Shown here piece after piece: positions 32,788-49,117 of a stretch of DNA of 49,117 bases. The stretch covers positions 1-49,117 of the forward strand of contig NZ_AUMJ01000047.1 of assembly GCF_000430625.1 (NCBI RefSeq). The letters run 5' to 3'. This DNA comes from Aneurinibacillus terranovensis DSM 18919. GTDB lineage: Bacteria; Bacillota; Bacilli; Aneurinibacillales; Aneurinibacillaceae. The first letter of the stretch is position 1, and each line of letters begins with the position of its first letter. Made by a program: the position numbers and the translations under genes. The notes under the pieces are model-generated. The model was given only the letters and a program-made list of their open reading frames with translations. It ran no database searches and was not told the DNA's origin.

Positions 32788-34314
<1,527 letters not shown>

Positions 34315-34325
34315 AAGAAGGTTTG

Positions 34326-34334
34326 TGGTATACT
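34326..34334 (+). promoter_or_regulatory. Extended -10 promoter of glpD
   Basis: TGG-TATACT (TG at 34326-34327, TATACT 34329-34334) forms an extended -10; the -35 region (TTTAAG) is poor. The predicted start near 34341 coincides with the AAGTTAATAA block shared with the glpF leader. Confidence 0.65.
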
Positions 34335-34340
34335 GAAATT

Positions 34341-34430
34341 AAGTTAATAAATCGGTAGGAGCTTCGGAGAGACCGCACTGCATTATAGCTGGAAAGATGG
34401 CTATATTGTTTGTCGCGGTCTCTCTTTTTT
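34341..34430 (+). promoter_or_regulatory. GlpP-responsive leader and terminator of glpD
   Basis: Starts AAGTTAATAAATCGG, then CGGAGA, then a perfect 10-bp stem GAGAGACCGC / GCGGTCTCTC (34367-34376 with 34415-34424) followed by TTTTTT. It has the same architecture as the glpF leader, so GlpP antitermination is inferred. Confidence 0.87.
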
Positions 34431-34432
34431 AT

Positions 34433-34695
34433 CCGTTAAAGAAAGTATATGTTGCTTTACAGTGTTAAAGCGACATATACTTTCCTCCATGGGTCACCTG
34501 AGAAAAACTCGCGGGAGTGTGCCGAACGTTGCTTTTTCGATGTGGAGCGTGTGGCCGGAAGGTCGCTCAGACCGACAATTGTCTCCATCATTGAGGTACC
34601 CGGATGTTTTGTCGGTCCGACCTTCCGGTCACTAAGCGGCCGTTTCGCTTCCCTGCAGAAAAAGGACGAGCGGCAACGCCCGCGAGTTTTTCTTA
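34433..34695 (+). repeat. 263-bp structured repeat, copy 1 (in the glpD leader)
   Basis: This is about 98% identical to 42212-42474 (two substitutions, one inserted and one deleted base). Hairpin I is an 18-bp stem (34441-34458 with 34467-34484). The outer stem of hairpin II is AGAAAAACTCGCGGG with its complement (34501-34515 / 34679-34693). An inner stem is CCGGAAGGTCG plus GACCGACA with their complements (34555-34577 / 34610-34628). Weak open frames inside do not survive the indels, so it is not coding. It sits between the leader terminator and the glpD SD and must be transcribed in the glpD mRNA. Confidence 0.92.
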
Positions 34696-34733: not shown

Positions 34734-36425
34734 ATGAAAACATCATTTTCAAGCAGGGAAAGAATGAGCATAGCTGACGGGTTGAACGAACAAACATTTG
34801 ATTTACTCGTAATAGGCGGAGGGATTACCGGATCAGGTATTGCGTTAGACGCGGCCACGCGCGGAATGAAAACCGCTCTGGTTGAAATGCAGGATTTTGC
34901 GGCCGGAACGTCCAGCCGTTCCACAAAGCTTGTCCACGGCGGATTGCGCTATTTAAAACAATTTGAAGTCAAAATGGTGGCGGAAGTGGGAAAAGAGCGG
35001 GCGATCGTTTATGAAAACGGCCCTCATGTCACAACGCCTGAATGGATGCTGCTGCCCATTCACAAGGGTGGGACGTTCGGCAAGTTCAGCACGTCAATCG
35101 GTTTAAAAGTGTATGATTTTCTCGCAGATGTGAAGAAAAGTGAACATCGTAAAATGTTAAATCCGCAGGAGACGGTAGAAAAAGAGCCGCTGCTTAAAAA
35201 AGAAGGACTGAAAGGTGGCGGATACTATGTGGAATACCGTACGGATGATGCCCGGTTAACGGTAGAAGTCGTCAAGGAAGCCGTTAAGCAAGGAGCTACG
35301 GCCATTAACTATACGAAGGTGGAAGAATTCATATATCGCGATGGAAAAGTGGCAGGCGTCCGTGTTGTCGATCAAATTAGCCATAAAATGTACGAAATTT
35401 ATGCGAAGAAAATTGTAAATGCCGCCGGACCATGGGTGGATTCATTGCGGGAAAAGGACGGTTCCCGAAGGGGCAAAACCCTTCAATTAACAAAAGGGGT
35501 CCATCTTGTCATTGACCAAAAGCGGTTCCCGTTAAGGCAGGCGGTTTACTTTGACACGCCAGACGGAAGGATGGTGTTTGCAATTCCCCGCGATGGCAAA
35601 ACATATGTTGGGACAACGGACACTTTTTATGATGAAGATATTGCCCAGCCGAAAATGACGGTAGCTGACAGAAAATACGTGATCGATGCGATCAACTATA
35701 TGTTTCCGGATGTCCGTATTACCGATCGCGATATTGAATCAAGCTGGGCGGGGGTTCGGCCGCTCATTCTGGAAGAGGGAAAAGATCCTTCAGAAATCTC
35801 CCGGAAAGATGAAATTTGGCAATCAAATTCCGGACTGATAACGATTGCAGGCGGGAAGCTGACAGGGTACCGGAAAATGGCTGAAACGGTTGTCAATCTT
35901 GTTGCGAATTTATTAAAAAATGAAGGACACAGCTCATTTCCTGCATGCAGGACGAAGAACTTCCCCATCTCCGGTGGAAATGTAGGCGGCTCAGCTAATT
36001 TCCCGGCCTTTATTAAGAAGAAAACAGCAGAGGGGATGCATCTCGGGTTTACAGCAGTGCAAGCGGAAAGATTAGTGCGCCTATATGGTTCCAATGTCGG
36101 CCGGTTATATGAAATGGCGGCGCTCTATGAAACAGAAGCCGAAGCGGGCGAATTACCGCTCGACCTTTTCGTTTCTGTCCACTATGCGATAGAGGAAGAA
36201 ATGGCGTATAAACCGGTGGACTTTTTTATTCGTCGGACCGGTGCCGTATTCTTTCATATTGACTGGGTATACAAATGGAAGGAATCGGTTATCAACTATA
36301 TGGCAAAACGGCTGCAGTGGAGCCGGGAAGAAAAGACAAAGTACAGCAATGAGCTTGAAATGTGTTTGCATGATGCGACCGTACCTGTAGATGACAAGAA
36401 TCATAATAAAAAGTTTGCCATATAA
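34734..36425 (+). CDS. glpD: Aerobic glycerol-3-phosphate dehydrogenase
   Basis: A membrane-associated FAD enzyme oxidising glycerol-3-phosphate to dihydroxyacetone phosphate and passing electrons to menaquinone. The 563-aa protein has the N-terminal FAD motif [21 protein letters not shown], then [20 protein letters not shown], the substrate-site region [10 protein letters not shown], and [11 protein letters not shown] 34734 follows GAGGAGGGCG. The mRNA leader is long (~390 nt) because the repeat lies in it. A terminator follows. Confidence 0.96.
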
Positions 36426-41101: not shown

Positions 41102-41260
41102 GCGTAGGGTCCATTTCAATAGCTCACCATCATACGTTTCTTAGTTGACAGAAAAATCGAATATAACTATAATTATAACGAACGTAGTCATTTACATTAT
41201 AAAAATCACCAACGATTGAGCAGAGGAAATTCCTATATTATAAAGAGAGTAGGAGATCAT

Positions 41261-42169
41261 ATGAGCCTCAATCATTTTATGGATGTATCCCCCGCAGACG
41301 AACGTTGGGGACATGGAATGGCACCCGGAGTAGAAGGTGTACAACTGCATTATGTGCGGCAGGGAATGGGTCCGTCGGTTATTCTGCTGCATGGCTGGCC
41401 TGGCTTTTGGTATGATTGGCGGCATGTTATACCGAAATTGGCCTTACAGGCGGACGTCATCGCCCCGGATTTTCGTGGATATGGGGATTCAGAAAAACCG
41501 GATCTTCCTCCGGCGCAAGGATATACTCCGCAGGTTTTCGCAAAGGATATTATCGCTCTACTGGAACATTTGAATCTCGATAAGGTTATTGTGGCTGCAC
41601 ACGATATAGGAGCGACGGTGGCCCAGGCTCTTGTCCGAATCGTTCCCGAAAGAATTCACTCTTTAATTTTATTGAACCCGCCGTATCCGGGAATCGGCAC
41701 GAGAAGGTTCGATCCTTCCGTTCAGGGACAGTTCTGGTACCAGCATTTACATAATCAACCCTGGGCCGAGCAGCTTATCGGGTATGACCGCAATACAGTA
41801 AAGCTGTACATAAGCCACTTTTATCAACACTGGGCCGGCCGCAAAGAGTCGGTTCGTCCGAAAGAATTAGAGGCCATCATTGATGTGTATTCCCGCCCTG
41901 GTGCTGTGAAGAGCAGTATTGCTTACTACAGGGCACGCGCCGGAGCCCGTGCGCAAGAAGCGGCTGCAGACCCCACATCCATTCAAGTCCACCATCCCAC
42001 TACAGTACTGTGGGGGGAAGACGACCCGGTCATGCTTGCGGCCTGGTCTGATAAACTTGGTGAATATTTTAGCCGCTTATCGTTCCGCATGCTTCCCGGC
42101 ATCGGGCATTTTGTTCCGTGGGAAGCTCCCAATGCAGTGATTGAAGCCATTCAGGCTCATTTGGAATGA
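41261..42169 (+). CDS. Alpha/beta hydrolase, epoxide-hydrolase/haloalkane-dehalogenase type
   Basis: A 302-aa alpha/beta hydrolase. The oxyanion motif is HGWPG, the nucleophile elbow is AHDIGATVA with Asp in place of Ser (typical of epoxide hydrolases and dehalogenases), the acid region is WGEDDPV, and the catalytic His is in GIGHFVPWEAP. A cap domain lies between about 140 and 225. The start is ATG 41261 with TAGGAG 5 nt upstream; an earlier in-frame ATG at 41216 lacks an SD. The substrate cannot be told from sequence. Confidence 0.85.
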   Translation: MSLNHFMDVSPADERWGHGMAPGVEGVQLHYVRQGMGPSVILLHGWPGFWYDWRHVIPKLALQADVIAPDFRGYGDSEKPDLPPAQGYTPQVFAKDIIALLEHLNLDKVIVAAHDIGATVAQALVRIVPERIHSLILLNPPYPGIGTRRFDPSVQGQFWYQHLHNQPWAEQLIGYDRNTVKLYISHFYQHWAGRKESVRPKELEAIIDVYSRPGAVKSSIAYYRARAGARAQEAAADPTSIQVHHPTTVLWGEDDPVMLAAWSDKLGEYFSRLSFRMLPGIGHFVPWEAPNAVIEAIQAHLE

Positions 42170-42211
42170 AGCAGAAAAATGAAGCGCGGAATTTCCCGGC
42201 CGCGTTTTTAA

Positions 42212-42474
42212 CCGTTAAAGAAAGTATATGTTGCTTTACAGTGTTAAAGCAACATATACTTTCCTCCATGGGTCACCTGAGAAAAACTCGCGGGAGTGTG
42301 CCGAACGTTGCTTTTCGATGTGGAGCGTGTGGGCCGGAAGGTCGATCAGACCGACAATTGTCTCCATCATTGAGGTACCCGGATGTTTTGTCGGTCCGAC
42401 CTTCCGGTCACTAAGCGGCCGTTTCGCTTCCCTGCAGAAAAAGGACGAGCGGCAACGCCCGCGAGTTTTTCTTA
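42212..42474 (+). repeat. 263-bp structured repeat, copy 2
   Basis: Same orientation and same length as 34433-34695. Differences from copy 1 are A for G in hairpin I (A-U instead of G-U), one T fewer in an unpaired run, one extra G just before the inner stem, and A for C in the bulge. None breaks a stem. It lies between the hydrolase and the metallopeptidase gene; an open frame from 42228 links it to that gene but is not real coding. Confidence 0.92.
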
Positions 42475-42581
42475 GTATGGCGGTCGGGCATCAAGCCGAC
42501 ATTTTATTGACATATTGGAGAGATAGAATAGAAGAGACAGGATATAATTTCCGTGGGTTGGTTAGAAAGGGGAAACACAAC

Positions 42582-43607
42582 ATGAAGACATTGTTTTTGG
42601 CTGCTATGCTTGCGACAACATCTTTGTCCGGACATACCCATGCAGATGTCATTCAATTCCAACATAAAATGGTAAAATACGCTCAACAGAACCCTTCTCT
42701 TGATGAATGGATAAATAAAATGATTAACGATATGAATCGGTTAGAGGCATCTCCGGATAATATTGAGAGTCTTAATCAACAGATGAGCCAGGTTTTTGAT
42801 GACATAGATCAGGTCCATAAGCTGATGACTTTGCACCGGATTGGGATTAAGCAGCTGCCTGGGCCGGGATCGAATTCGTCACAGAATGTATCGCCTCAAA
42901 TACAGATTTCCGTCGGCGACAATCAAGTATCAGGCAACACGCTCGCTCTTGCCGGTCAAACGGTGAAAGATATCTCTCTCCCTATCCTAAAAGAAAATTT
43001 GGGCTACGTACCGGATAAATCTACGCATGTAGTGCTGTTTTCAACAAAGAATTCATATAGGAAAGCGCTGAAGCGAGCGGGAGTTCCGACTGATCAGATA
43101 TCAAAAATTGTGAACGAGACGGGTGGACTCACCGTACAGTCTGATATTTGGATCCCTTTATACGCTCTGCAGGACCAATCCGAGTTAGCGAATGTGCTTA
43201 CCCATGAGTTAACACACGTGGTGCTGAATCAGCAAAACATTGGAGATGAAATTCCGGTTTGGTTGAATGAAGGCATTGCCTGGCATGATGGAATGCTGGC
43301 CAAAAGTCAAGTAAGCCCATTAAAGGCGCAGCAGGAATGGGATGCTTTAAATGCCCAGCTACAACAGGCGGTTGATGCAGGTATAGCCGTCCCTCTTACC
43401 GCAAGTGAAGATGATATCTTAAACGCCCAGTATAATGTAGAATGGGAAGATTATCTCGCCGTTCGCCAGCTGATTCAAAATGGTGGACAGGAAAAATTCA
43501 AGTCGTTTATTCAGCAGGTAGAAAAAGATGGGGTAGAAAAAAGCTTCCTTACGACATTCGGGATTCCGATGAAAGAATATGAAAATAATTTTTACCAATC
43601 CATTTAA
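42582..43607 (+). CDS. Secreted zinc metallopeptidase (HExxH, peptidase MA-like)
   Basis: A 341-aa exported protein. It has an N-terminal signal peptide (MKTLFLAAMLATTSLSGHTHA), a helical region (about 25-90, many Gln/Asn), then a gluzincin-type catalytic domain with HELTH in VLTHELTHVVLNQ and the downstream Glu in WLNEGIAWHDG. ATG 42582 has AAAGGGG 9 nt upstream. The open frame continues 118 codons upstream through the repeat; that part is noncoding. The target is unknown. A terminator follows. Confidence 0.85.
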   Translation: MKTLFLAAMLATTSLSGHTHADVIQFQHKMVKYAQQNPSLDEWINKMINDMNRLEASPDNIESLNQQMSQVFDDIDQVHKLMTLHRIGIKQLPGPGSNSSQNVSPQIQISVGDNQVSGNTLALAGQTVKDISLPILKENLGYVPDKSTHVVLFSTKNSYRKALKRAGVPTDQISKIVNETGGLTVQSDIWIPLYALQDQSELANVLTHELTHVVLNQQNIGDEIPVWLNEGIAWHDGMLAKSQVSPLKAQQEWDALNAQLQQAVDAGIAVPLTASEDDILNAQYNVEWEDYLAVRQLIQNGGQEKFKSFIQQVEKDGVEKSFLTTFGIPMKEYENNFYQSI

Positions 43608-48820: not shown

Positions 48821-49018
48821 AGTCGCCGCTGAGAGCGGATGGCGGGAATGAAGTTCCTTGAAAACTGAACAGTGAAATGCCAAATGTGCGATATAACCCG
48901 GATACAATTCTGGATTTTAAGTAAGACCAGCTTTTTAAATGAGTATTAAGGAACGTCGACTAAGAACGCAACATCGTGTTGCAACGTCGACGTTAGCCCA
49001 TCCGTGGGCGTCAAACTT
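48821..49018 (+). other. rRNA operon leader with processing boxes
   Basis: CCTTGAAAACTGAA (48856-48869) is the box that flanks rRNA genes in Bacillales and is complementary to 268-281 after the 23S gene. AACGTCGAC / GTCGACGTT (48952-48960 with 48986-48994) encloses GCAAC / GTTGC, a strong hairpin. GCCCA / TGGGC follows at about 48996-49009. These fit precursor processing or antitermination structures. Confidence 0.6.
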
Positions 49019-49117
49019 TTTTGGAGAGTTTGATCCTGGCTCAGGACGAACGCTGGCGGCGTGCCTAATACATGCAAGTCGAGCGGACTTTTAAAAGCTT
49101 GCTTTTAAAAGTTAGCG
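49019..49117 (+). rRNA. 16S ribosomal RNA, 5' end (partial)
   Basis: Contains the universal 16S start AGAGTTTGATCCTGGCTCAG (from 49025) and ACGAACGCTGGCGGCGTGCCTAATACATGCAAGTCGAGCG. The variable V1 stem AACTTTTAAAAG-like loop follows and the gene runs off the window. The first mature base is estimated. It is the first gene of a second rRNA operon, in the same direction as the first. Confidence 0.96.

Follow-up and report, generated by a model that had tools for sequence, protein, structure and literature searches.

Probable mobile hairpin elements that target transcription terminators in Aneurinibacillus, with a folded core shared by other Bacilli and absent from Rfam

Introduction

IS1272 transposes into stem-loops, and one of the routes proposed for it duplicates the whole stem-loop (PMC5678879). 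The bcr repeats of the Bacillus cereus group are short, high-copy, lineage-restricted and MITE-like; some have conserved folds or are transcribed, and their mobility has been tied to a TTTAT motif (PMC6542083, PMC3446304). Group IIC introns are directed to their insertion sites by intrinsic terminator hairpins (PMC3898094, citing Robart 2007).

Here we describe an element of about 263 bp that is present twice in a 49,117-nucleotide stretch of the Aneurinibacillus terranovensis DSM 18919 genome (contig NZ_AUMJ01000047.1, referred to as the window). Like IS1272 and the IS1182 family, it has stem-loop targets that share no sequence, and its copies in the relatives G054 and G096 show whole stem-loop duplication. 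Unlike IS1272, which is autonomous and replaces the stem-loop, the element has no transposase, leaves the hairpin in place or duplicated, and contains a conserved folded core. It resembles bcr1 and other bcr repeats in being short, high-copy and MITE-like, and its sites carry a T-run plus A or AT where bcr repeats have TTTAT, a comparison based on published descriptions; stem-loop duplication, in contrast, is not described for bcr repeats in PMC6542083 and PMC3446304. As in group IIC introns, insertion is guided by terminator hairpins, but the element is much smaller and lacks ribozyme domains and reverse transcriptase. With REP/REPIN, ERIC and BOX sequences it shares the character of a non-autonomous intergenic palindrome in tens of copies. 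It differs from these by an internal core that is conserved across bacterial families and by nearly exclusive targeting of terminators. The literature searched contained no description of a terminator-targeting hairpin family.

Results

The sequence-only reading of the window had claimed two same-strand copies, about 98% identical, with an 18-bp hairpin and a long nested hairpin. Both copies lie on the plus strand, their measured identity is 98.5%, and both hairpins are present in the predicted fold (Table 1). The four differences between the copies are also real, but the claim that they spare every stem was only partly right according to the predicted fold. The change at position 34472 swaps a G-U for an A-U pair within a stem, and the change at 34566 (C to A) affects an unpaired base. 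However, the missing T (34533) belongs to a T5 tract that is paired, and the extra G (34552) is located at a stem, so that "every stem" is too strong. The predicted fold of copy 1 has a free energy of -134.1 kcal/mol, compared to -77.7 +/- 4.8 kcal/mol for shuffled sequences (z -11.9, none of 200 shuffles as good), and folding as DNA gave a similar excess stability (z -11.1). Open reading frames inside the element matched no Pfam family.

Table 1. Features of the two element copies in the window
Feature	Position	Strand	Details
Element copy 1, ~263 bp	34433-34695	+	flanked by glpK at 32806-34314 and by a glpD-like gene at 34734-36425
5' palindrome of copy 1	34441-34484	+	stem 18-19 bp; predicted fold and self-match on opposite strand
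Long nested hairpin of copy 1	34499-34695	+	outer arms TGAGAAAAACTCGCGGG / CCCGCGAGTTTTTCTTA; predicted fold
Conserved core of copy 1	34538-34643	+	model R1, 116 bits
Conserved apical motif inside copy 1 core			TGTCTCC-TC-TTGAG-TACCC-GATGTTTTG
Insertion target of copy 1	34367-34431	+	abuts element upstream; intrinsic terminator-like hairpin GAGAGACCGC..GCGGTCTCTC and T-run
Element copy 2	42212-42474	+	3' of alpha/beta hydrolase gene (41216-42169), 5' of Peptidase_MA_2-like gene (42582-43607)
Conserved core of copy 2	42316-42422	+	model R1, 119.8 bits
Insertion target of copy 2	42184-42211	+	abuts element upstream; hairpin CGCGG..CCGCG and T-run

Copy 1 may occupy the leader of the glpD-like gene, and a terminator hairpin precedes it between glpK and glpD (window 34315-34433). 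In B. subtilis, leader terminators controlled by GlpP are known between the two genes; the insertion of copy 1 could affect glpD regulation. An open frame (42228-42581) starts inside copy 2 and is in phase with the Peptidase_MA_2-like gene, adding 118 codons; this is probably due to chance, and the gene starts at an ATG of its own (42582). Both ends of the contig are ends of rRNA genes (LSU, 1-210; SSU, 49018-49117), so that it probably reaches from one rRNA operon to the next. A Bacillaceae-1 RNA is located at 48944-49008.

A BLAST search of the own genome, a draft of 98 contigs and 4.25 Mb, extended the pair in the window to at least 40 dispersed full-length copies that are 95-100% identical. 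Model R1, a covariance model that covers the core (107 nt), had 67 matches in the same genome. The mean pairwise identity of 97.2% across 40 aligned copies argues for a recent burst. Among these copies, changes are less frequent in paired columns (84 in 200) than in unpaired ones (62 in 63), but 54 of those 84 disrupt the base pair, as expected for a recent burst. The ends of the element are fixed across copies, with hairpins close to both ends and a constant 3' end (TTTTTCTCA/TTTTTCTTA). Inverted ends consist of the outer hairpin arms alone, and about 66 bp of the element precede the left one. The length of 263 bp, the 40 aligned copies and the inner frames without family match are features of MITEs. 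In one case (L012), a copy follows the 3' end of another copy of the element in tandem. The genome also contains a second repeat family, B (L057-L086), of about 90 bp (GCGTATAAGAAAGTATAACTTTCTTATACGC ... GGCTTGGCGCTAGCCAAGTTTTCTTTA), with some 20 or more copies. Family B ends like a terminator; copies of the main element are found after B copies, and B copies after those of the main element.

In a simple test, the element was found to start directly 3' of an intrinsic terminator (hairpin and T-run) at 38 of 40 sites, compared to 20 of 280 random positions; by eye, the two sites that did not pass look like weak or overlapping terminators. The element always has the orientation of the terminator, starts at most two bases from the T-tract in 32 of 40 copies, and is mostly preceded by a T-run plus A. 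As for IS1272-type elements, the stem-loop targets are of unrelated sequence. By eye, insertion sites in three other Aneurinibacillus relatives look like those of the own genome. No direct repeat common to the upstream and downstream flanks was seen for the own-genome copies. Neither a strict empty site nor an uninterrupted close paralogue was recovered. Three copies (L019, L026, L030) lie within diverged members of the same class, and the sequences at these sites suggest simple insertion.

Other genomes were searched with covariance models. Model R1 detected the core in all 11 sampled genomes of the host's family (Aneurinibacillus relatives), in 4 to 89 copies each; the 4 sister-family genomes searched had no match. 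Model R2, built from diverse members and run on 398 Bacilli genomes, added 7 of the 387 Bacilli genomes outside the family; these 7 belong to three other families and mostly have several copies each. Further copies in related genomes, the lack of which the sequence-only reading had regarded as damaging to its interpretations, are thus present. A second genome of the genus, apparently Aneurinibacillus sp. Ricciae_BoGa-3, contains a related repeat family that is 72-77% identical, and A. tyrosinisolvens is a further carrier. The ends vary between lineages, and only the core is common to all. Several copies in Ricciae_BoGa-3 (L189 5476-5653, L170, L176, L156, L154, L158 and L178) share an insert of about 72 nt in the apical loop; these copies still multiplied, so an insertion in the loop is tolerated. 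Divergent pairs of members, with facing 5' ends about 240-320 bp apart, lie between unrelated genes in other species (L191, L192, L193, L194, L106, L116 and L209). A divergent pair is also present on one IMG/VR contig that has tail genes and is apparently a prophage; the plasmid and phage collections had no match for either core type.

Covariation analysis, named earlier as a check on the repeat's fold, gave values far above shuffled and slid controls, both within the family and across Bacilli. In 94 distinct sequences, 89.4% of cells pair and 231 cells are changed on both sides, versus a shuffled mean of 48, in alignments that were fitted to the model and are hence biased towards it; when the partner was slid by one base, pairing fell to 32-44%. 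The models were built from genomes other than those that hold most of these stem changes. For 27 sequences from outside the family, aligned in the same way, the covariation score was 0.578 compared to 0.161 after shuffling, and none of 500 shuffles scored as high.

Such conservation might indicate a family of non-coding RNA genes, of the host or of a mobile element, in which a discrete structured RNA with a regulatory or a guide/cofactor role is under selection and spread is secondary. Covarying stems over distant Bacilli and the apical motif TGTCTCC-TC-TTGA--TACCCAGATGTTT, which is kept in sequence across members, fit this explanation. So does the strand preference of A-type copies from Aneurinibacillus relatives, as expected of RNA: the sense strand folds better than the antisense strand by a mean of 11.5 kcal/mol (9 of 10 copies), and G-U amounts to 11.5% against 5.5%. 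A strand test on consensus pairs, with 61 G-U against 48 A-C, gave no clear direction. However, there is no strand asymmetry in other lineages. Moreover, helix 7 has a G-U in just 3 of 243 cells in the outside set, though all Watson-Crick types are present and many changes are two-sided. Such a pattern fits better with repair of one palindrome arm from the other, at the DNA level, or with selection on a DNA fold than with RNA. A scan for sigma-70 promoters had no match in or just 5' of either window copy, which also speaks against an RNA gene; an internal promoter spotted by eye (TTGCTT-N18-TATACT) was not supported by the scan. The element had no match in Rfam 15 at gathering score, and microRNA-like Rfam matches were weak and represent chance hits on a hairpin. 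On balance, we regard an RNA gene family as unlikely.

Evidence on the target comes from two distant genomes, G054 and G096, in which the core lies within elements of 250-344 bp that, in contrast to those of A. terranovensis, are bounded by clear terminal inverted repeats (CAGACTGAAGACAAA ... CAGCGTGTAGACAAA). Direct repeats of 19-35 bp flank 23 of 25 copies bounded in this way. They abut the element ends and are whole hairpins (for example AAGCGTTGAATCTCTCTTGATTCAACGCTT on both flanks), whereas none of 600 mismatched flank pairs reached the score of true pairs. At one locus, the element-hairpin unit is present three times, with four hairpin copies, forming a tandem array. These repeats indicate that the target in G054 and G096 is a stem-loop that is duplicated whole. 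The absence of flank duplication in the window's genome suggests that the insertion step there may differ. A plain MITE, as outlined beforehand, would combine many copies and target duplications with a lack of compensatory change. The first two were found, the duplications only in the distant relatives; compensatory changes, however, are plentiful when lineages are compared. Y1 enzymes are not known to produce terminal inverted repeats with stem-loop duplications, and group IIC introns are not known to duplicate whole hairpins.

These observations bear on the possibility that the element derives from a Y1/HUH system (IS200/IS605-like or REP/RAYT-like), which would imply single-stranded transposition, subterminal hairpins and insertion 3' of a short T-rich target without duplication. 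The copies in the window's genome look much like this, with their fixed orientation, flanks without duplication, constant 3' end, hairpins near both ends and T-run plus A at the left, and Y1 transposase genes exist in this genome. However, nothing like the element's ends was found at the best Y1 gene, most of the 15 Y1 matches are fragments, and the G054 and G096 relatives, which share the core, combine terminal inverted repeats with duplicated stem-loops. We therefore consider a Y1/HUH origin quite unlikely. Other candidate enzymes in the genome are two group II intron loci and one IS1182-like gene. A retroelement satellite, whose RNA would be copied into DNA after terminators by the reverse transcriptase of a group II (IIC-type) intron in trans, is very unlikely, for although group IIC introns take the terminator hairpin as a target determinant (PMC3898094) and the genome has group II intron reverse transcriptases, no group II ribozyme domain was detected in the element by an Rfam library that finds real introns elsewhere in the genome, the L100 intron is located within a transposase gene and not 3' of a terminator, and whole hairpins are duplicated in G054 and G096.

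Searches for a mobilising enzyme found no transposase or autonomous partner linked to the element ends in the own genome, where a search with the left-end motif recovered small repeats alone and no autonomous transposon. In G054 and G096, no autonomous IS or inverted-repeat pair at transposon distance was evident among the matches listed. An open reading frame of 659 amino acids (L190 7528-9507, genome G005) is enclosed by two divergent members whose distance is about 3.8 kb. It was rejected as a general autonomous partner, since it is present in one genome, with a fragment in one other family genome, and no Pfam family matches it above cut-off.

Discussion

The element had at first been read as either a small non-autonomous mobile element or a conserved RNA. 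This interpretation is supported. For mobility speak at least 40 scattered, near-identical copies with fixed ends, their precise position 3' of terminators, and target duplications in distant relatives; for a conserved fold speaks the covariation. We think it likely that the element is a MITE-like palindrome that is mobile but non-autonomous, contains a conserved folded core and depends on an enzyme that acts in trans and recognises stem-loops. Comparison with IS1272-type elements, group IIC introns and bcr1 established no membership in any named element family.

We propose that an enzyme encoded elsewhere would recognise stem-loops, probably as single-stranded or cruciform DNA, and would join the element to the foot of a terminator hairpin. 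Insertion after terminators would spread the element to gene ends, where harm is small. The element's own 3' hairpin arm and T-run would then become a new target, giving rise to tandem arrays. The core may be retained either for recognition by the mobility machinery or for an additional RNA role. More speculatively, and with considerable doubt on our part, the core itself could be part of mobility, with the folded RNA or single-stranded DNA recruiting the stem-loop-recognising enzyme in trans. The elements might then form a new, class-wide family that is guided by structure and locates its sites through the shape of terminators rather than their sequence, with some lineages duplicating the whole hairpin.

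Altogether, the element belongs to a widely distributed family of mobile hairpins that target terminators; the family is absent from Rfam, and its behaviour resembles that of MITEs and of IS elements directed by stem-loops. The family makes shape-directed transposition testable, with terminators as natural traps and duplicated hairpins as a record of each event. The range of copy numbers, from 4 to 89, makes it possible to look for the enzyme through patterns of presence and absence. The family also bears on the evolution and multiplication of terminators in Bacilli.
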